A stretch of DNA of 23,856 nt from a virus, in the IMG/VR virus record IMGVR_UViG_3300031673_000482, positions 1 through 23,856 of that record; one strand, written 5' to 3'. Both the position numbers and the translations under genes were made by a program. Position 1 is the stretch's first letter. Each line of letters begins with the position of its first letter. This document shows, piece by piece, positions 5,590-16,764 of the stretch. Under the pieces are notes generated by a model. The model saw nothing but the letters and a program-made list of their open reading frames with translations, searched no databases and was not told where the DNA came from.

Positions 5590-5593
<4 letters not shown>

Positions 5594-5784
5594 TCGGCTC
5601 TACACTCTATGCAGCGTGCGAGGGTCCGCCGGAAATGCCCCATGGGCGCGTGATCTTTTCGCGCTGGATCTACGGTATAGATGGTCCGATCGAAGGCGGC
5701 TGCCCAGTCTGTACGGCGGCGGAAGCGCTGGCAAAGCTGACGCTCGCGGATCTTGTGGCGGCGCGGAAGGGAGAAGAGGCGTAG
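5590..5784 (+). CDS. Hypothetical small protein with CxxC, 64 aa
   Basis: GTG 5590 overlaps the preceding TGA by 4 nt (GTGA), with GAGG 7 nt upstream. The product (MIGSTLYAACEGPPEMPHG...) has one CxxC (GGCPVCTAAEAL) and a lone Cys near residue 10, followed by an Ala/Leu-rich helix and a charged tail. It is the last gene before a strong terminator. I do not recognise a family. Confidence 0.7.
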
Positions 5785-5789
5785 CCGTA

Positions 5790-5846
5790 GGGTCCGCCGC
5801 GCCTCGGCGCTGGCATGACGCGGAAGCGCGGCGGACCCTTCTTTTC
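5790..5846 (+). terminator. Rho-independent terminator
   Basis: Perfect 13-bp arms GGGTCCGCCGCGC (5790-5802) and its complement (5826-5838) enclose a 23-nt loop and are followed by TTCTTTTCT. This closes the rightward operon that ends at 5784, five bases downstream of its last stop codon. Confidence 0.85.
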
Positions 5847-5938: not shown

Positions 5939-5989
5939 CCAAGCCAAACCGAAGGGAGCCGAAAAATGACGAACCAAACCAACGCCGCC
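5939..5989 (+). repeat. Duplicated leader/start region, copy A
   Basis: This 51-nt segment, spanning the ribosome site (GAAGGGAGCC), the ATG at 5966 and the first eight codons, recurs at 6610-6660 with one substitution. Its core CGAAGGGAGCCGAAAAATG also precedes the gene at 6983. Confidence 0.95.
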
Positions 5990-6601
5990 GCACTCGAAGC
6001 CCTTGAAGCGCTTGAAGCAGCTTATGCGGTCCGCGCCGCCGCCCGCGCCGCCGCCTACGCTGCCGAAGCCGCCGCCGCCCGCGCCGCCGTTGATGTTGAT
6101 AAAGCGGCTCTCGCTGCTACCACCACTACCGCAGATGTTTCGGCCTGTAGTGCCTACGCCGCCGCCCGCGCCGCCTATGACGCTGCCGACGCCGCCGCTA
6201 GTGACGCACTTGATACGTATGACGCAGCCCGCGCCGCCGCCCGCGCCGCCGCCCGCGCCGCCGAAGCCGCCGCCCTCGAAGCCTACGCCGACGCCGACGC
6301 CGCCCGCAACGCCGCCCGCAACGCCGCCCGCAACGCCGCCCGCAATGACATAGCCGCCGCCCTCGAAGCCTACGCCGACGCCGACGCCGACGCCGCCCGC
6401 AACGCCGCCCGCGTCGACGCTCGCGCCGCCCGTGACGCTCGCAACGCCGAAGCCGCCCGCGCCGCCCTCGAAGCCGCCGCCGAAGCCTCCGCCGAAGCCG
6501 CCCGCGCCGCCGAAGCCGCCGCCGAAGCCGCCCGCGCCGCCGCCGACGCCGCCGCCGACGCCGCCAACGCAGCCCACGCCGCCGCCCGCAACGCCAAGTA
6601 A
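5966..6601 (+). CDS. Ala-rich repeat protein, 211 aa
   Basis: ATG 5966 follows the shared leader with GGGAG at 8 nt. The product starts MTNQTNAAALEALEALEAAY and is then almost entirely Ala with Arg, Glu, Asp and Asn (ARAA, EAAA, ADAD, AARN units). It ends ARNAK, exactly like the next gene. Such a sequence should form long helices; whether it folds as a helical bundle, a coiled coil or a filament cannot be told. Nearly all alanine codons are GCC, unlike the mixed alanine codons elsewhere, which makes the gene very GC- and C-rich on the coding strand. Internal duplications are visible (see 6299-6346, and an 87-nt offset copy of a segment at 6269 and 6356). Long open frames on the opposite strand and in the second frame are by-products of this composition. 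Function unknown. Confidence 0.75.
   Translation: MTNQTNAAALEALEALEAAYAVRAAARAAAYAAEAAAARAAVDVDKAALAATTTTADVSACSAYAAARAAYDAADAAASDALDTYDAARAAARAAARAAEAAALEAYADADAARNAARNAARNAARNDIAAALEAYADADADAARNAARVDARAARDARNAEAARAALEAAAEASAEAARAAEAAAEAARAAADAAADAANAAHAAARNAK
6299..6346 (+). repeat. Four tandem 12-bp units encoding AARN
   Basis: Units at 6299, 6311, 6323 and 6335 read GCCGCCCGCAAC, with the last ending AAT. They are in frame and encode AARN four times in the 211-aa Ala-rich protein. Confidence 0.95.
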
Positions 6602-6609
6602 CCTAGCGC

Positions 6610-6660
6610 CCAAGCCAACCCGAAGGGAGCCGAAAAATGACGAACCAAACCAACGCCGCC
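6610..6660 (+). repeat. Duplicated leader/start region, copy B
   Basis: This is the second copy of the 51-nt leader and start segment, with one A-to-C difference from 5939-5989, placing the ATG at 6637 in the same position relative to the ribosome site. Confidence 0.95.
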
Positions 6661-6924
6661 GCCGCACTCGAAGCCCTCGAAGCCGACGCCGCCCACGCCG
6701 CCGCCCGCGCCGTTTTTGAAGCCGCCCGAAACGCTGCTAACGTCGCTTCCGCCAAGGCTACCCGCGCCGCCAAGTCCGCCCGCGCCGCCAAGTCCGCCTA
6801 TTACGCCGCCCTCGCCAACCACGAAGCTGCCATTACCGAAGCCACCAACGCCGCCCGCGTCGCCTCCGAAGCCTATGCAGTTGTTGTTTCTACCTATGCG
6901 GCTACCGCCCGCAACGCCAAGTAG
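6637..6924 (+). CDS. Ala-rich repeat protein, 95 aa (paralogue of the 211-aa protein)
   Basis: It shares with the gene at 5966 the leader, the first eight codons (MTNQTNAA), the LEALEA start of the helix and the last residues ARNAK, but the middle is shorter and less regular, with more Lys and Tyr (AAKSARAAKSAYYAAL). It is therefore a paralogue made by duplication and then length change. It is expected to be helical, without membrane segments or cysteines. Alanine codons are again mostly GCC. It is co-transcribed in the cassette after the 5889 promoter. Function unknown. Confidence 0.72.
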   Translation: MTNQTNAAAALEALEADAAHAAARAVFEAARNAANVASAKATRAAKSARAAKSAYYAALANHEAAITEATNAARVASEAYAVVVSTYAATARNAK

Positions 6925-7310: not shown

Positions 7311-8045
7311 ATGAGTAACATAACGGAAGTGATCGCATTGTCCGGCGGGAAGGATTCAACGGCGATGGCGCTGCGGTTGTATGAGACTGAGCCCGAGCTT
7401 GTCGCGCGTGCTCGAATCGTTTGCTCACCGACTGGCGACGAACTGCCCAACATGCAAGAGCATTGGCGGCGGCTCGAAGGGCTCATCGGTAAGCCGTTGG
7501 AGCACATTACAAACGACGGTCGCACGCTTCACGATTGGATCGAGCATTTCAACGCGCTACCGAATCCGCGAATGCGCTGGTGTACGCGGCTATTGAAGGT
7601 GCAGCCGTTCGTAGCCTTTCTCGCCAGTCTACCCAAGCCGGTCGTGCAGTGCGTTGGGTTGCGTGCGGACGAGCCGCTTCGCGCGGGGCTCTTCTCGGAC
7701 GAATTCGAGTCACGTTACCCTCTCCGTGAATGGGGTTGGGGGCTCGAAGATGTTGTCGGGTACCTCGAAGAGAAAGGGATTGAGATACCGAAACGCACCG
7801 ACTGTGCGCGGTGTCCATATCAGCGGCTTAGTGAATGGCACGAGTTGTGGAAGGCGCACCCGGACATTTACGAACACGCGGCGCGCCAGGAAGACGCAAC
7901 GGGGCGGACGTTCCGCAGCCCGTCGCGCGACACCTGGCCAGCGGGGTTGCGCGAGCTGGGCGCAGACTTTGAGCGTGGCCGCGAGCCGCGGGGCGGGTGG
8001 GTAGACGGCACGAATTCGCGCGCATGTCGCGTGTGCTCCCTATGA
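7311..8045 (+). CDS. PP-loop ATP pyrophosphatase, PAPS reductase/DndC-like
   Basis: The product belongs to the adenine-nucleotide alpha-hydrolase (PP-loop) superfamily, whose members activate a substrate by adenylation or reduce PAPS. The PP-loop SGGKDST is at residues 11-17. C91 lies in MRWCTRLLKVQP, a signature of PAPS-reductase-like phage proteins. Two CxxC pairs, C165/C168 (DCARCP) and C239/C242 (CRVC), could hold an Fe-S cluster or zinc. Length (244 aa) fits. Possible roles are sulfur metabolism, tRNA thiolation or DNA sulfur modification. No partner gene (such as a cysteine desulfurase) is in the window, so the substrate cannot be named. It sits 13 nt before the DNA polymerase. The ribosome site is weak. 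The gene has no CTAG at all and a GC-rich codon style, which suggests a separate origin from its neighbours. Confidence 0.85.
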   Translation: MSNITEVIALSGGKDSTAMALRLYETEPELVARARIVCSPTGDELPNMQEHWRRLEGLIGKPLEHITNDGRTLHDWIEHFNALPNPRMRWCTRLLKVQPFVAFLASLPKPVVQCVGLRADEPLRAGLFSDEFESRYPLREWGWGLEDVVGYLEEKGIEIPKRTDCARCPYQRLSEWHELWKAHPDIYEHAARQEDATGRTFRSPSRDTWPAGLRELGADFERGREPRGGWVDGTNSRACRVCSL

Positions 8046-8058
8046 CCGATCGATACAA

Positions 8059-10014
8059 GTGAGCGTCTTGATGCTTCACGCTCTAGATTGCGAGACTTGG
8101 CCTATTCGACCTGGCCAAGTCTCGCCTCGGCTTGTCAGCGTCGCGTTTCAAACCGGGCAATCGCAGCCCGCAATCTTTCATCGATCGGACGATTGGCAAT
8201 CACACTTCCGATCCGTCATATCGTGCGCATTGCGCGACGGAACGCCACTCGTCAATCAAAACATTGCTTTTGATTTCCGCGTCTTGATCAACGAAGAGCC
8301 AAGCCTAGCGCCGTTGATCTGGCAACTATACGATAGCGATCTCGTATGTGATCCGATGATCACAGCAATTCTCTTGAGCATCGCGCACGGGGAGCCCCAA
8401 GCGAACGGCACTCGTAAGGCAATGCACCTAGGCGGCTTCGCGCTGGCGGACCTAGCCAAGCGCCACCTAGGCGAGACAATCGAGGGAAAAGGTCCGGACG
8501 CTTGGCGCACTCGATACCATGAGCTAGATAGCGTACCGATCAAAGACTGGCCAGCCGCGGCGCGAGAGTATGCCATAGAGGATCCGGGTTGGGCTTTGCG
8601 CGTGTTCCAAGCCCTTCGCAACAGTAACGGAGGCGCTCGCCCTAGGGGAGAAACGCGCGGAGTGCGTACTTCTTGGGCACTTGGACTGGCAGAATCGTGG
8701 GGAGTGCGAACGGATCCCGAGTACGTTGAAGCACTGAAAACGCACCTAACAGCGCACGTTGCTGAGTGCTACGATAGGATCCGACAAGCGCCGGACTTCA
8801 ACGGCTGGCTTCGATCTAACGGCTCTCGCGATATGGTGCTTATGCGAGAGCGTATCGAAGCGGCGTTGCCGGAACATGAGAGAGCCGAGCGCATTACGCC
8901 TACCGGCAAGCGAACAACCGATCGTGACACACTTGAAGCCTGTGTTGACGCGGAAGATCTGGCGGCTTGGGTAGATCAAGGCGAGGCAAAAACAGAGTTA
9001 ACAACCTTCGTTCCACGGCTGGAAGAGGGAACAGCACTGCCAATCCATGCGCGTTGGTGGCCAATCGTGGAAAGTGAACGGCTTAGTTGCAGGAATCCTA
9101 ATCTAACGAATCTACCAAGGCGAAGCATGTTGATCGGCGGCGTTAGGGTTGGCGTTCGATCTTGCTACGTTCCGCGCCCCGGCTTCGTCTTCAGCGCGGC
9201 GGACTTTGGAACAGCGGAGTTGCGCGCATTTGCTCAGATCTGCCTTTGGTGGTTTGGCCATAGTGCCATGGCGCAAGCCTTTAAGGATCAAACTAAGGGC
9301 GGGTTGGATCTACACTCCAAGCTGGCGGCGCGTATCCTCGGCATATCGGACAATGACGCAAAGACGTTGAAAGCAAAGGGCGATGAAGACTTTGATCGCA
9401 CTAGGCACGTTGCCAAGCAAACAAACTTCGGGCGGCTCGGCGGTATGGGAAATGAGCGCTTCATTCTTACGTGCCGTAAAGACGGAGTAGATTTGACACT
9501 TGGCGGAAGACTCGGCAACAACCTTGAAGAGATTGCCGAAGCGCTGAAGCTAAAGCAGTTTGCCCTATTCCCCGAGATTCCTGAGTATTTCGCTAGGATC
9601 AATAGCATACTCCGAGAAAGTGGGGGCGATAACGCCACGATAACTAGCGCTGGCACTGGCCTAGTGCGAGGCAACGTAGGCTATTGTGATACGTGCAATC
9701 ACTTCTTCCAGAACCTTGTGGCACAATGGACTAAAGATGCGCTGTATGTGATAGCACGAGAATGCTACAACGTGCCAAGCTCTCCCCTTTATGGGTCGCG
9801 TCCGATCATTGTTCCGCATGACGAGACGATCTTGGAGGTGCCAGAATACAAGGCGGGCGCGGCTGCGGATCGGCAAGCTGAGATCATGCGCCTAGTTGCC
9901 AGCGCTTCAGCGCCGGATGTCCCTATTGAGTGCGAAGCCGCGCTAATGCGGCGTTGGGATAAGCGAGCGAAGCCCGTTCGCGTCAATGGTATTCTAGTGC
10001 CTTGGGAGGCATAA
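8059..10014 (+). CDS. polA: DNA polymerase, family A, with 3'-5' exonuclease
   Basis: This is the phage replicative DNA polymerase. With GTG 8059 it has 651 residues; ATG 8071 is equally possible and neither has a clear ribosome site. Exonuclease motifs: D10-x-E12 (ALDCETWP), Exo II NQNIAFD with D72, Exo III Y171-x-x-x-D175. Polymerase motifs: A, ADFGTAELR with D382; B, R449...K453...NFG 456-458; C, H587-D588-E589. After NFG the usual tyrosine position (E. coli Y766) is Gly (RLGGMG), which matches a phage subgroup with NFGxxGGxG. All catalytic acidic residues are present, so both activities should be intact. Phe at 457 is the residue linked to discrimination against dideoxynucleotides in this family. 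It lies downstream of the PP-loop gene and upstream of two small genes. Confidence 0.95.
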   Translation: MSVLMLHALDCETWPIRPGQVSPRLVSVAFQTGQSQPAIFHRSDDWQSHFRSVISCALRDGTPLVNQNIAFDFRVLINEEPSLAPLIWQLYDSDLVCDPMITAILLSIAHGEPQANGTRKAMHLGGFALADLAKRHLGETIEGKGPDAWRTRYHELDSVPIKDWPAAAREYAIEDPGWALRVFQALRNSNGGARPRGETRGVRTSWALGLAESWGVRTDPEYVEALKTHLTAHVAECYDRIRQAPDFNGWLRSNGSRDMVLMRERIEAALPEHERAERITPTGKRTTDRDTLEACVDAEDLAAWVDQGEAKTELTTFVPRLEEGTALPIHARWWPIVESERLSCRNPNLTNLPRRSMLIGGVRVGVRSCYVPRPGFVFSAADFGTAELRAFAQICLWWFGHSAMAQAFKDQTKGGLDLHSKLAARILGISDNDAKTLKAKGDEDFDRTRHVAKQTNFGRLGGMGNERFILTCRKDGVDLTLGGRLGNNLEEIAEALKLKQFALFPEIPEYFARINSILRESGGDNATITSAGTGLVRGNVGYCDTCNHFFQNLVAQWTKDALYVIARECYNVPSSPLYGSRPIIVPHDETILEVPEYKAGAAADRQAEIMRLVASASAPDVPIECEAALMRRWDKRAKPVRVNGILVPWEA

Positions 10015-10016
10015 CC

Positions 10017-10235
10017 ATGGGTAACCTAACGTGCGATCGTCAGTCTCTGATCATGTATAGCGAAGGGATCTTGTTGGATTTCAGGCAAGGAAGGGGGCGA
10101 ATGTGTAACGAGGTAGAGGTTGAACGCGCATTTGAAGCCCTTGAAAAAGGCGAGACTGTCTACCTACTAGAAGCCGGGCGGATTGTCTCGTCTATCAAAG
10201 AGATCTGCGGTTGCTGGGAAGAGTGCGAGGTATAA
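10017..10235 (+). CDS. Hypothetical small protein, 72 aa
   Basis: ATG 10017 follows GGGAGG with 7-nt spacing and comes 2 nt after the polymerase stop; a longer start at 10002 lies inside the polymerase and upstream of that ribosome site. The product (MGNLTCDRQSLIMYSEG...) has Cys near residues 6 and 30 and a C-terminal CGCWEEC cluster. The EVERAFEALEKGETVYLLEAG stretch looks like helix then strand. It is not recognised. Its start context (GAGG, TAAccATGG) is repeated at the next gene. Confidence 0.75.
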   Translation: MGNLTCDRQSLIMYSEGILLDFRQGRGRMCNEVEVERAFEALEKGETVYLLEAGRIVSSIKEICGCWEECEV

Positions 10236-10237
10236 CC

Positions 10238-10459
10238 ATGGATAAGGCTAGGGATAACGAATTGCTAAGGCTACCGCCAGCAAGCGCGATGGCAGGCGTA
10301 TGGGATATTTCGATTCAGACTGTGTATCAGCGGACACACGGGCGGATCCAAACCAGCGCACGAGCAATCGCGACGCTCGCGAGAGAGCTAGATCTAGACT
10401 GCGGGCTTCTCTGCATGGAATTCGCCCGGCGGCGCGCCCGTTTTCTGGCGGATCACTAG
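10238..10459 (+). CDS. Small protein with HTH-like pattern, 73 aa
   Basis: ATG 10238 follows GAGG with 7-nt spacing, 2 nt after the previous stop. Residues ~14-52 (ASAMAGVWDISIQTVYQRTHGRIQTSARAIATLARELDLD) have the rhythm of a Cro/CI-type helix-turn-helix: helix, Gly-like turn, recognition helix, then a helix with LARELD. The match is by eye and weak. If correct it would be a small DNA-binding regulator placed at the end of the replication operon. The C-terminus is basic (ARRRARF). It is the last rightward gene before the convergent lysis/tail block. Confidence 0.7.
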   Translation: MDKARDNELLRLPPASAMAGVWDISIQTVYQRTHGRIQTSARAIATLARELDLDCGLLCMEFARRRARFLADH

Positions 10460-13040: not shown

Positions 13041-13237
13041 TGTCTCTCCGTCGCAAGTGTACGCTCTTCCAAGCGCGAAACCCTATCTCGCAAGCCTTCA
13101 ACATCTACGCGATCTAGGCGCTCGGTCAATGACGTTAGCCTCGAATCAACGCCTTTAATCTGGCCAGACAAGCGCCAGCTAGAGCCGAGGATTGCCAGAA
13201 TGATCGTGACAACCGATCCAATGATTGCGCCTTCCAC
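13016..13237 (-). CDS. Small TM plus coiled-coil protein of the lysis operon, 73 aa
   Basis: GTG 13237 shares one base with the muramidase stop (TAGTG). Residues ~4-20 (AIIGSVVTIILAILGSS) form a membrane span, and the rest (GVDSRLTSLTERLDRVDVEGLRDRVSRLEERTLATE) is a clear heptad coiled coil with one Cys near the end. The layout resembles XhlA/BhlA-type holin partners, though in XhlA the coil precedes the span. It probably works in lysis with the neighbouring holin candidate. Confidence 0.75.
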   Translation of the reverse strand: MEGAIIGSVVTIILAILGSSWRLSGQIKGVDSRLTSLTERLDRVDVEGLRDRVSRLEERTLATERQCEARHRQ

Positions 13238-14022
13238 TATGCTTCGCCCTTTGGTTGCACGAGGAAAGTGGCAAAGTCCGCTTCCGATCCAATGAAGAGA
13301 TCTCGGTCAATCTTGCCAGCGCCGTTGCGGTAGCCGTAGCATTTGCCTTTGCCAGTATATTGCCAGATATGAAGCGTTCCGGCTTCCGCCATGCTTACCG
13401 GCGGGTTGTGTTCTGGCGGACCGAATAGGTTATCAAGTGCAACGTAGGCTGCTTGCCAGATAGGGTAACGAGCCAAGCGCTTTGTCCGTGCAAGCCTGTA
13501 GTGCCAGAAGGATCGGCCAGTATACAAAACGGGGGTTATGCCTGTCAGCTCTTCAACCCGCTCGAGGAAAGTAAGTGCCCAAGCAAGCACTTGCGAAGCG
13601 GGAAACTTAGCAGCGCGAGCGCCTAGATCCTTACCGCGCGCCAGCTTCTTTTCGTCCTTTGTTCCGCCCGGATAGCTCTGCCACTCTAGATCCAGCGCTG
13701 GCGGAAGATCGCCGGGCTTCAAAGGACCGAGCGTCTTGACGAAGATTTCGGCTTGCCTCTTGGCGCTGGCTAGGCTCTTCTTTCCCCAACGGAGATCCGC
13801 ATAGTGATACCCTCCGAAAGCAATCGGGAGCATGACACCGGCGGGTGAATCGTTGTAGCCGCGGAAGCGCTTTTGATGCTTGCGAAACGAGCGCATAGGT
13901 TTGACGCCTTGGCTTGTTTTGGCATAGCAACCGCGCACTTGATCGGCAATGCGAAGAGTAACAGGATCACAACGGCTAGGCCATTGCCAACCAGAAACAT
14001 CTATGAGGTTGATCCGTTGCAC
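13237..14022 (-). CDS. GH25 muramidase (endolysin)
   Basis: The enzyme hydrolyses the MurNAc-GlcNAc bond of peptidoglycan at the end of the lytic cycle. The GH25 fold is shown by D8 in IDVSGWQ, the GGYHYAD motif with H73, the catalytic D111-x-E113 in PPALDLEW, LYTGRSFW, and IWQYTGKG near the end with IDRDLF. It has 261 residues, only the catalytic domain, no signal peptide and no wall-binding repeats, so a holin is needed for export. The start is GTG 14022 with no ribosome site. A TACAAT hexamer ends exactly 6 nt before this GTG, which would put the transcript start at the codon itself. It is first in the leftward lysis operon and divergent from the gene at 14138. Confidence 0.92.
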   Translation of the reverse strand: MQRINLIDVSGWQWPSRCDPVTLRIADQVRGCYAKTSQGVKPMRSFRKHQKRFRGYNDSPAGVMLPIAFGGYHYADLRWGKKSLASAKRQAEIFVKTLGPLKPGDLPPALDLEWQSYPGGTKDEKKLARGKDLGARAAKFPASQVLAWALTFLERVEELTGITPVLYTGRSFWHYRLARTKRLARYPIWQAAYVALDNLFGPPEHNPPVSMAEAGTLHIWQYTGKGKCYGYRNGAGKIDRDLFIGSEADFATFLVQPKGEA

Positions 14023-14028
14023 TTCTGC

Positions 14029-14057
14029 ATTGTAGCGCTATGGGAAAAAGAAGGCAA
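14029..14057 (-). promoter_or_regulatory. Candidate leaderless promoter for the muramidase
   Basis: Read on the minus strand, TTGCCT (14057-14052) and TACAAT (14034-14029) are 17 bp apart, and the -10 ends 6 nt before GTG 14022. Transcription would start at or next to the start codon. The -35 lies inside the left arm of the inverted repeat 14049-14116. Confidence 0.5.
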
Positions 14058-14116
14058 GCCGCACAAGATTAGGTGGGGAGCCAAGGTTGCCAAGTAATCT
14101 TGCGGGCTTGCCTTCT
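14049..14116. repeat. Inverted repeat between divergent genes
   Basis: Left arm 14049-14071 and right arm 14095-14116 are complementary over about 22 bases, with a C/G mismatch and one extra base, around a 23-nt spacer. Both arms present GGCTTGCCTTCT outward, toward the muramidase on one side and the 14138 gene on the other. On the minus strand the hairpin is followed by TTTTTCCC (14049-14042), so it could also act as a leftward terminator. Confidence 0.9.
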
Positions 14117-14123
14117 GCTTTGA

Positions 14124-14132
14124 TGGTATGAT
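14124..14132 (+). promoter_or_regulatory. Candidate extended -10 promoter for the 14138 gene
   Basis: TGGTATGAT matches an extended -10 (TGn followed by a near-consensus hexamer), ending 5 nt before ATG 14138. No proper -35 is seen at 17 bp, but TTGCCT of the inverted repeat lies 13 bp upstream. A transcript from here would be nearly leaderless. Confidence 0.45.
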
Positions 14133-14137
14133 GAAGC

Positions 14138-14800
14138 ATGGCACGTAATCAAGGCATAGTCATAGTTAACTTTGACGCTGGGCTCTTTAAGCGGGACGTG
14201 TTGCGCTTCGCAAAGAAACAAGTGCCGTATGCGATAGCTACGGCGTTAAACGCAACGATCCTAGACACTAAAGAGCAACTGATAGAGGATCTACCGAAGA
14301 CGTTTACGATCCGCTCTGATTGGACTGAGAAAGGGATACGTGTAAGGCTCGCCAAAAAAACCAAGCTAGGCGCCAGCGTAGGAACGGTTGATGAATACAT
14401 GCGGCGGCAAGCCGTTGGCGACACAAAGAAGCCCAAAGATGCGAGAATGTTGGGGGTTCCGGTCAAAGCAAGGGCGAACCCCAAAACGAAAATTACACCA
14501 GCGCTATGGCCAGGCCCTATCCAAAGGAAACAAAAGGGCTTCTACCGTGAAACCAAAAGTGGCGGCAAAATGCTGCTAGTCCCTAGGCGCCCAAGGAAGC
14601 CGAAGAAAGGCAGAGCGCGGCGCAAGCGTCGTGCAAACGCGAGCAAGGGAAAGCTCTTGCTTATGTACATCCTCAAATCTAGCATCTATGTACCGAAGCG
14701 CTGGCCACTAGAAAAAACGCTGCATATCGTAGCAACAAAGCGTTGGGTTCCGAATATGGCCAAGGCTTGGAAGCGCGCTCTAGCCAGCAAAAAGCGCTAG
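14138..14800 (+). CDS. Tail protein resembling lambda gpZ minor tail family
   Basis: The 220-residue, very basic product opens with a helical region (RFAKKQVPYAIATALNATILDTKEQLIEDL) followed by FTIRSDWTEKGIRVRLAKKTKLGASV. This parallels the start of lambda gpZ-type minor tail proteins, in which a VPxAxAxALNxT helix precedes an Ile-Arg-rich strand. The middle is Arg/Lys-rich (RRPRKPKKGRARRKRR) and the end has a conserved-looking KSSIYVPKRWPLEKTLHIVATKRW. Proteins of this family help complete or terminate the tail. ATG 14138 has no ribosome site. The orientation is odd: it is the only rightward gene in the late region, convergent with the tail fibre (their stops share CTAG 14797-14800). Family assignment is tentative; that it encodes a protein is likely. 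Confidence 0.75.
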   Translation: MARNQGIVIVNFDAGLFKRDVLRFAKKQVPYAIATALNATILDTKEQLIEDLPKTFTIRSDWTEKGIRVRLAKKTKLGASVGTVDEYMRRQAVGDTKKPKDARMLGVPVKARANPKTKITPALWPGPIQRKQKGFYRETKSGGKMLLVPRRPRKPKKGRARRKRRANASKGKLLLMYILKSSIYVPKRWPLEKTLHIVATKRWVPNMAKAWKRALASKKR

Positions 14801-16764
14801 CCTACGTAGCATAGTGCAATCCCGTAGCCTCGCTCCGAACCGTATGCACTAACGACTTGCATACATTGGATCGCCTTACCAGCGCCGGGCTCGTTTGCGT
14901 GCATTCCAAGCCCTTGCTTGCCTGGTACAACGAAGCCGCCGGGCTCAACACTAGCGTCCACTAGCACGCGGATTTGACCTAGCAGTCCAACGGCCGTCCA
15001 CTCTTCCGGGCGCTTGTCACGCGGTACATAGGACATTGCAGAATCATATTTCGGGTTGATCAACGCGCGGCCGTCTTCGTCGCAAAGAGGCGCGCCCATT
15101 TCATCCCGCAGATACCGATCGTGCCAACCAAGCGGCGCGCTGTTCGCCAGCGTCGCGGGCGCTACCGATACCACGCCAAGGATCCGATCGCCAACGCCAG
15201 CGATAGCGACGCGCCCTTTGGCCAGCGTAACGATTGCCCCACGCGGGATCGTTCCTAGCTCGAGGTTTTCAAAGCACTCGGCATAGTCCGCAGTTCCCGC
15301 ACCAATCGTTCCATCCGAATAGATATCACCAGAATCTGATTCGATGCGCCAAGTCTGCCCACCGCTCGTTCCTCCGCAGATCGATCGCGTGTTTGCAACC
15401 GTGATCGCTCCGGTTCCAAAGTCACTAGCCACAACCAGCGTGGAACTGCCCGAAACAGTGAGATCACCAGTGCAACCGATGATCGTTGCGCCCGATCCAG
15501 AAGCCAGCGGTCCAACACTCCCGGTTCCTTTCTGGCTTGTGATTGCTGCGGAAGCGTTGCCGTTTGCCGTAACAGCGCCGCGGCAAGCAATCAAAGCGAC
15601 CGCTTCCCCACCGCTGATTGTAGGGATTGCGGTAGTCACGCGGGCGCAAGCTACGATCGCCCCGGCTTCCGAGATTCCGCCGATGATTCCGCCATTACTT
15701 GCGCAAATCCACGATCTGCCGTTGGTGGTATTGATCGTGACATTTCCGCAAGCAACAGCCGCGATGTCCGTCCCTTGCGCGACGCTGACACTATCACAAG
15801 CCGCGGCAAGGGAGCGAACCGCGGAGGCGCCGATCGTTGTAGGCGAAGCCGTAGAACCATAGCAACCGACGATTGCACTATGAGTGCCTGCGTTGGAACA
15901 ATCGGCGCCACCTAGCGCTTGGCCTTCGCTGGCGATCGTGAGAAGGTATGCGCCGCCCGCTATGGTGCTAGCTCGTTTTGAGACTGCAACCATAGAGCTA
16001 GGGCTATTGGCTAGGCCGTTTTCGGCGCCGATTACGGATGAAGCAACGGCACCGGCAAGACTACCACCTGTTGCGCCTATAACAACCGTGTTTGCTGCGC
16101 CGCTGGTATCGCTGGATAGAGAAGCCGCAATGAAAGAGTAATCAGCGCTCGCGATATCGCAACTAGCACTTGAAAGAATACAAGCAGTACTATTGGTGGC
16201 TGCGATCGTGCAAGTGTCCGAAGCTGCGATCACCCTTTCAGTACCAGCGCCCGAAACGATCTGACAACTAGTGGATCCAATAACGGCGCACTGTACACCG
16301 GCAACAACGCCAGCCGAAGATCCGGCCGCAAAGGCGTTGGTTCCGGTAACAGCAAGTCCATTACAAGCAATAGCTGCGGCTTGCGTGCCAGATACCAGGC
16401 AAACATTAGACGCAACAACGCTAGCATTCAGCCCATTCGCTTGGCTAGCAATGCAGCCTAGCAGGGTATTGGTATGGGTTGTTGAGCTAACGCCAGTATC
16501 TGAGATATCAGACTTCAAGCCCGCCACTTCGCTGATATTACCAAGCGCCGTTGCGAGCTGGTTATTGCTAGTCTTGCTGAGAATTCCGCCCGTCGCCTCT
16601 ATTGCGTTGGCGATCTCTTCTTGGACTGCGTTTAGCCAGTCCGTTGTAACTACGGTTCCGCGAGTGCTGGTGCCAGTGTCCGCCTTGCGGAAATATCCAG
16701 GCGTTCCAAGCGCGCTAGGCGTTGGCAATACTGCAACATTGTCCGGGCCGTCGATTCTGTACAT
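14797..16764 (-). CDS. Tail fibre, Cys-rich beta-roll with C-terminal Peptidase_G2-like domain
   Basis: The N-terminal ~60 residues (MYRIDGPDNVAV...TVVTTDWLNAVQEEIANAIEATGG) are a typical baseplate-attachment domain of phage fibres. Residues ~100-485 are Gly/Ser/Ala/Thr-rich repeats of about 13-16 residues with alternating small hydrophobics (AVIGSTSC, TIAATNSTAC, ILSSASC), like trimeric left-handed beta-rolls. Unusually they carry 17 Cys at similar places. From ~491 (TADYAECFENLELG...GDRILGVVSVAPATLANSAPLGWHDRYLRDEMG) the sequence resembles the Peptidase_G2 intramolecular chaperone domain, which folds the trimer and cuts itself off. The C-terminal part of the gene would then be absent from the mature fibre. 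It should bind the host surface. It is the last gene of the tail operon. The start ATG 16764 has AGGGA about 9 nt upstream. Confidence 0.85.
   Translation of the reverse strand: MYRIDGPDNVAVLPTPSALGTPGYFRKADTGTSTRGTVVTTDWLNAVQEEIANAIEATGGILSKTSNNQLATALGNISEVAGLKSDISDTGVSSTTHTNTLLGCIASQANGLNASVVASNVCLVSGTQAAAIACNGLAVTGTNAFAAGSSAGVVAGVQCAVIGSTSCQIVSGAGTERVIAASDTCTIAATNSTACILSSASCDIASADYSFIAASLSSDTSGAANTVVIGATGGSLAGAVASSVIGAENGLANSPSSMVAVSKRASTIAGGAYLLTIASEGQALGGADCSNAGTHSAIVGCYGSTASPTTIGASAVRSLAAACDSVSVAQGTDIAAVACGNVTINTTNGRSWICASNGGIIGGISEAGAIVACARVTTAIPTISGGEAVALIACRGAVTANGNASAAITSQKGTGSVGPLASGSGATIIGCTGDLTVSGSSTLVVASDFGTGAITVANTRSICGGTSGGQTWRIESDSGDIYSDGTIGAGTADYAECFENLELGTIPRGAIVTLAKGRVAIAGVGDRILGVVSVAPATLANSAPLGWHDRYLRDEMGAPLCDEDGRALINPKYDSAMSYVPRDKRPEEWTAVGLLGQIRVLVDASVEPGGFVVPGKQGLGMHANEPGAGKAIQCMQVVSAYGSERGYGIALCYVG

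Follow-up and report, generated by a model that had tools for sequence, protein, structure and literature searches.

Divergent leaderless promoters have been described in the telomere phage PY54, where the cI and cro genes form a divergent pair and both mRNAs begin at AUG, as determined by RACE (PMC4488713). The locus described here is similar in that two divergent phage genes carry promoters, here putative ones, immediately upstream of their start codons (PMC4488713), but the PY54 genes are immunity repressors arranged around the Cro operator, whereas the present genes code for a lysis and a tail protein, are separated by a terminator-like hairpin and include one GTG start. PY54 was the sole divergent leaderless phage pair found in the literature searched, and it drives repressor genes; the publications found on leaderless late phage genes were few and general. 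A PY54-type switch of divergent leaderless regulators and an operator does not describe this locus, where a lysis gene and a tail gene carry the divergent leaderless signature.

In bacteria, the motif TANNNT approximately 12 nt before the start marks leaderless 'TA-led' genes (Zheng et al. 2011, PMC3160421), the share of which is highest in Deinococcus-Thermus, Actinobacteria, Aquificae, delta-Proteobacteria and Acidobacteria (PMC3160421). The two genes studied here share with TA-led genes a TANNNT at about 12 nt and the lack of a Shine-Dalgarno site (PMC3160421), but they are phage genes with starts predicted from sequence. Intrinsic (Rho-independent) terminators consist of a stable stem followed by a U-rich tract, as found here in the first intergenic gap beyond a leftward operon; unlike the usual ones, the present stem has a length of 22 bp, one bulge and a loop of 23 nt, its 3' arm would also serve as the -35 element of the next promoter, and one antisense gene lies between it and the last stop codon of the operon. 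Bidirectional promoters with a shared -10 element (Warman/Grainger; PMC12825309 and a 2021 paper cited there) also direct divergent transcription from one short region; in these, a single overlapping and near-symmetric -10 is used on both strands. That model was rejected here, as the two -10 elements are separate and lie on opposite sides of the gap (14029-14034 and 14127-14132), approximately 92 bp apart.

The window, that is the whole stretch of DNA analysed, is a 23,856-base virus record of a tailed phage with Mu-like baseplate genes, and IMGVR_UViG_3300031578_000239 (30,427 bases) is a longer copy identical to it. The baseplate wedge gp48 family and a Peptidase_G2 fibre were detected with Pfam and PHROG, and the DNA circularisation and baseplate J proteins have homologues in Bordetella, Salmonella and Shigella phages. 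A tRNA search of the longer copy, starting at window position 7385 and going rightward, and of the related phages L066 and L068 found none; the window had no match in Rfam, cultured phages showed no DNA similarity around the gap, and the searches with single proteins returned only the identical longer contig. Early genes run rightward up to 10459 and the remainder leftward, except for a single rightward gene, whose strand is opposite to that of the other tail-operon genes. The genes around the gap are:

13237-14022, minus strand: GH25 muramidase (endolysin) gene, with its GTG start at 14022 (Pfam Glyco_hydro_25, E 7.6e-17; PHROG endolysin, E 2.4e-20)
14138-14800, plus strand: minor tail protein gene (PHROG 1924; phrog_1924, E 8.2e-19), with its ATG at 14138, predicted to be leaderless
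14797-16764, minus strand: tail fibre gene (Peptidase_G2, E 5.3e-41; short tail fibre PHROG)

The muramidase gene leads the leftward lysis block, which shares its strand with the tail operon and follows it downstream. The fibre gene is the final gene of that operon and is convergent with the minor tail gene, the two stop codons overlapping by 4 nt. The gap between GTG 14022 and ATG 14138 is 115 bp.

Profile searches that started from the tail gene and from the fibre led to L015/L067, L066, L068 and L145, and several phages carry gp47, the fibre and the PHROG-1924 gene together. A genome scan with the tail gene gave no match, and one with the fibre found distant prophages; among these, the tail gene is present in L151 (a Myxococcota MAG) alone, in the same direction as the fibre. 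The PHROG-1924 gene is co-directional with the fibre in L145, L013/L014, L069, L148 and L151, and inverted in the window, L066, L068, L067 and L070. The window, L066 and L068 form a clade with 98/98 support; the inversion is common to all three, with GH25 as the next leftward gene, and the tail gene most closely related to that of the window is the one of L066 (53% identity). Since L067 and L070 are placed elsewhere in the tree, outside this clade and with weak support, the inversion may have arisen on more than one occasion. The gene keeps the same place after the fibre gene on either strand, depending on the phage, and the two stop codons overlap or abut in the window, L066 and L068; this one gene was apparently inverted in place.

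Both predicted starts bordering the gap are sound. GTG 14022 is the sole possible start ahead of the conserved IDVSGWQ motif, with an in-frame stop 18 nt upstream, and ATG 14138 is the first start in its frame and gives an N-terminus that aligns with those of the relatives. An earlier note on this DNA had proposed that both genes have divergent, apparently leaderless promoters, with a -10-like hexamer ending 5-6 nt upstream of each start, a -35 supplied by an inverted repeat on the muramidase side, and no ribosome site at either start. The hexamers and the -35 were found as described:

14020-14022, minus strand: GTG start codon, at which a leaderless muramidase mRNA is predicted to begin (+1), with TACAAT 6 nt upstream and no ribosome site
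14029-14034, minus strand: -10 element TACAAT of the putative muramidase promoter, ending 6 nt before GTG 14022
14052-14057, minus strand: -35 element TTGCCT of the same promoter, with a 17-bp spacer, within the 3' arm of the leftward hairpin
14124-14132, plus strand: extended -10 element TGG-TATGAT of the putative tail-gene promoter, the hexamer ending 5 nt before ATG 14138

The TATGAT hexamer occupies 14127-14132, with the TG one base ahead of it. Counted from its first T, TANNNT lies 12 nt from the GH25 start and 11 nt from the minor tail start, within the distance of about 10-12 nt typical of TA-led genes. As for the ribosome sites, the claim held fully for GTG 14022, where the duplex energy of +0.2 kcal/mol indicates a clear absence, and in part for ATG 14138, which has a weak site (-3.1 kcal/mol) rather than a proper one. 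Across the window and its continuation, energies of -4 to -8 kcal/mol are found for most other genes, and the other weak sites belong mostly to overlapping, probably coupled genes or to genes with uncertain starts.

The TTGCCT-17-TACAAT combination was found by a promoter scan, in which 9/12 matches were not rare in the region (4 found versus 4.6 expected). The hexamers themselves are among the best -10 sequences in the window, only 25 (TACAAT) and 20 (TATGAT) of approximately 47,700 hexamer positions scoring as high. An equal or better hexamer 4-8 nt upstream was found for 0.28% (TACAAT) and 0.19% (TATGAT) of the window's 2,156 ATG, GTG and TTG codons, and composition-matched shuffles of the gap gave p values of 0.004 for the muramidase and 0.002 for the tail gene, with both together in 0 of 20,000. 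On the tail-gene side no -35 matches at 16-18 bp; a copy of TTGCCT lies 13 bp from TATGAT, a spacer too close for a -35, and this candidate was rejected. The idea that the same box serves each gene symmetrically failed on this point (13 versus 17 bp).

The same signature was found at both genes in L068, which has a gap of 74 bp without recognisable similarity to that of the window. Its GH25 gene has TTGACC-18-TAAACT ending 6 nt before GTG 8042, one of the two matches of the promoter scan in 5.7 kb (0.2 expected), and its tail gene has TGC-TATCCT ending 6 nt before GTG 7967, a start picked from two candidates, although this MAV start aligns with the L066 start. These hexamers are equalled at 0.78% (GH25) and 0.47% (tail gene) of starts, with a shuffle p of 0.005 each; the Fisher combined p was 3e-4 for L068 and 1e-3 with L066 included. 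The window and L068 have the same class of elements, GH25 having a full -35/-10 and the tail gene an extended -10. At each of the four starts, TANNNT begins 11-12 nt upstream. In L066, the GH25 start has a weak -10 (4.3% of starts, shuffle p 0.15) without the leaderless signature, and the tail gene has TTGAAA-17-TATCGT, the only promoter match in 6.5 kb (0.6 expected), which would give a leader of approximately 25 nt. In L067, where the neighbour is not GH25, both genes have strong ribosome sites and no -10 at their starts. The proposal of divergent, apparently leaderless promoters is supported by the rarity of the hexamers and by their recurrence at both genes in L068, L066 being without the signature.

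Between the two promoters, the near-perfect 68-bp inverted repeat was confirmed both in the sequence and by folding statistics. Perfect 12-bp arms (14049-14060/14105-14116) extend past one bulged base to a stem of 14049-14071/14095-14116, spanning 68 nt. Arms of 12 bp were rejected as an unusual feature window-wide, as the longest arms in shuffled windows measure 9-13 bp; the unusual feature is that a single 115-nt gap contains so long a bulged stem. The best 80 nt of the gap fold at -37.2 kcal/mol, compared to -17.2 +/- 3.3 in shuffles, of which 0 of 1000 were as low.

14049-14116, minus strand: hairpin of the putative leftward terminator, with a 22-bp bulged stem and a 23-nt loop (-38.5 kcal/mol, z -5.5; plus strand, z -4.9)
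14044-14052, minus strand: U-rich tract TTCTTTTTC of the putative leftward intrinsic terminator, with predicted RNA 3' ends at approximately 14042-14046

A symmetric operator, in which a dimeric phage or host regulator on two GGCTTGCCTTCT boxes would co-control the lysis and tail promoters, was the reading favoured in the earlier note, and we consider it unlikely. The perfect 12-bp arms, one close to each promoter, would suit it, and PY54 cI/cro provides a known case of divergent leaderless promoters around an operator (PMC4488713). However, the boxes are 44 bp apart and unequally spaced from the -10 elements (17 versus 13 bp), a -35 is supplied on one side only, and the complementarity continues past the bulge, which is explained by an RNA hairpin and not by half-sites. 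An operator repeat would be conserved or repeated at co-regulated promoters, whereas this one occurs once in the 30.4 kb of the longer contig and is absent from L066 and L068; a pattern search with the arms in IMG/VR matched that longer, identical contig of this virus and nothing else. L066 has a perfect 14-bp palindrome, ATCGTGTACACGAT, at 8054-8067, centred in the 41-bp gap between its divergent GH25 and tail genes; although it could be cited in favour of an operator, its sequence is unrelated. It is a possible operator or overlapping promoter in L066 only.

The alternative mentioned in the earlier note, a leftward terminator, fits better. TTTTT follows the stem on the minus strand (TTCTTTTTCCC) and is absent on the plus strand (TTCTGCTTTG), and the T-tract score is 3.2-3.5 leftward versus 1.0-2.6 rightward. 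A stable hairpin (-38.5 kcal/mol) followed by a U-tract (TTCTTTTT) downstream of an operon is found on the leftward strand only. A scan of the 30.4 kb found two unbranched long-stem hairpins with a T-rich tail in intergenic DNA, the one in the gap and one at 5786-5840 (CTTCTTTT tail), the remaining candidates being branched or within coding sequence. The second hairpin (plus strand) has a 14-bp perfect stem, a 23-nt loop and the tail CTTCTTTTCTG, and lies between early genes in a 180-nt gap after the gene 5590-5784; a run of seven T follows shortly downstream, and it looks like an intrinsic terminator. Both hairpins have long loops and end in C(C)TTCTTTT, suggesting that the phage builds its terminators in this style. 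Since shuffled genomes also give hairpin-plus-T candidates at similar energy, the argument draws on where the hairpins lie and how they are built, and not on energy by itself. A leftward intrinsic terminator is the best reading of the gap hairpin because its U-run is leftward only and the phage contains a second hairpin of the same build. Its efficiency is uncertain, as it scores -5 to -7, below the d'Aubenton-Carafa threshold, owing to the long loop; the d'Aubenton-type formula used here provides only a rough test.

Could the terminator be the only functional element of the gap? The -10-like hexamers would then be due to chance and both genes would be expressed from elsewhere. The strong stem and leftward U-tract are accounted for in this way, and promoter matches in the window are not above chance overall. 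However, the nearest preceding rightward gene ends at 10459, so that the minor tail gene needs a promoter in or near the gap, and the terminator would separate the muramidase from tail transcription, so that the muramidase would need a promoter as well. Moreover, each hexamer is found at fewer than 0.3% of starts, and both recur in L068. We regard this explanation as improbable.

The reading that we prefer, and consider probable, is that of two back-to-back leaderless sigma-70-type promoters with a leftward terminator between them, made necessary by the inverted tail gene. From the observed sequence features and their rarity, the recurrence of the promoter signature in one relative and the inversion shared by a supported clade, we infer start-site positions, leaderless translation, termination and insulation as follows. 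TTGCCT-17-TACAAT would start the muramidase RNA at or within 1-2 bases of the GTG, and the extended -10 TGG-TATGAT would start the minor tail RNA at or within 1-2 bases of the ATG, yielding two leaderless mRNAs. Points against this reading are that leaderless GUG starts are poorly used in some hosts, that L066 lacks the leaderless signature and that neither L066 nor L068 has the hairpin. The hairpin would be outside either mRNA and form the 3' end of the leftward tail-operon RNA, with its U-tract extending from the muramidase -35 into the -35/-10 spacer. Because the tail gene is co-directional with the tail operon in several distant relatives and inverted here, it would need its own promoter. 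The leftward tail transcript would run antisense through it, and a terminator in the gap would be required because this antisense RNA would otherwise enter the lysis genes. No terminator could be placed between the fibre and minor tail genes, since their overlapping stop codons leave no space, making the gap the first site available outside genes. The tail RNA would end at approximately 14044, inside the spacer of the muramidase promoter, insulating the lysis genes. Judging from usual footprints, polymerase may cover approximately 14000-14075 at the muramidase promoter and 14085-14160 at the tail-gene promoter; both would probably be occupied together in the window, and the closer promoters of L068 may compete.

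Instead of insulating the lysis genes, a leaky or antiterminated attenuator might admit tail transcription into them late only, the muramidase promoter being minor. The position of the lysis genes, which come after the tail operon and share its strand, is compatible with such read-through, as is the hairpin being the sole evident barrier between the two, but no antitermination signal was identified, the hairpin is missing in L066 and L068, and a clear promoter is present at the corresponding GH25 start of L068; we find this regulated read-through doubtful. Least probable is a timing device, in which leaderless translation and back-to-back polymerase binding would allow the muramidase and the inverted tail gene to be translated late in infection without normal ribosome recruitment, and the hairpin, as terminator and -35 in one, would couple muramidase initiation to passing tail-operon transcription.

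With back-to-back promoters and a terminator, the locus would provide a sequence-based case, repeated in one diverged relative, of leaderless promoters that serve, as a pair, two late genes of a phage, one for lysis and one for the tail. It would also illustrate the sequel to inverting one gene of an operon, namely a promoter of its own for the gene and a new stop for the antisense RNA, and promoter and stop would both fit in 115 bp as the terminator stem supplies the -35. The parts are familiar; the apparent twist, a small one, is this supply of the next promoter's -35 by a terminator stem.

Elsewhere in the phage, signs of gene duplication were observed. Two adjacent Ala-rich ORFs in the window (5966-6924; 211 and 95 aa) have near-identical start regions (ribosome site GAAGGGAGCCGAAAA, MTNQTNAA), representing a duplicated gene start. 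In L011, a continuation of the same phage, the consecutive genes 8776-9579 and 9591-10358 (minus strand) have identical first 15 nt, ATGGCTACTGTAATC, which suggests another tandem duplication.
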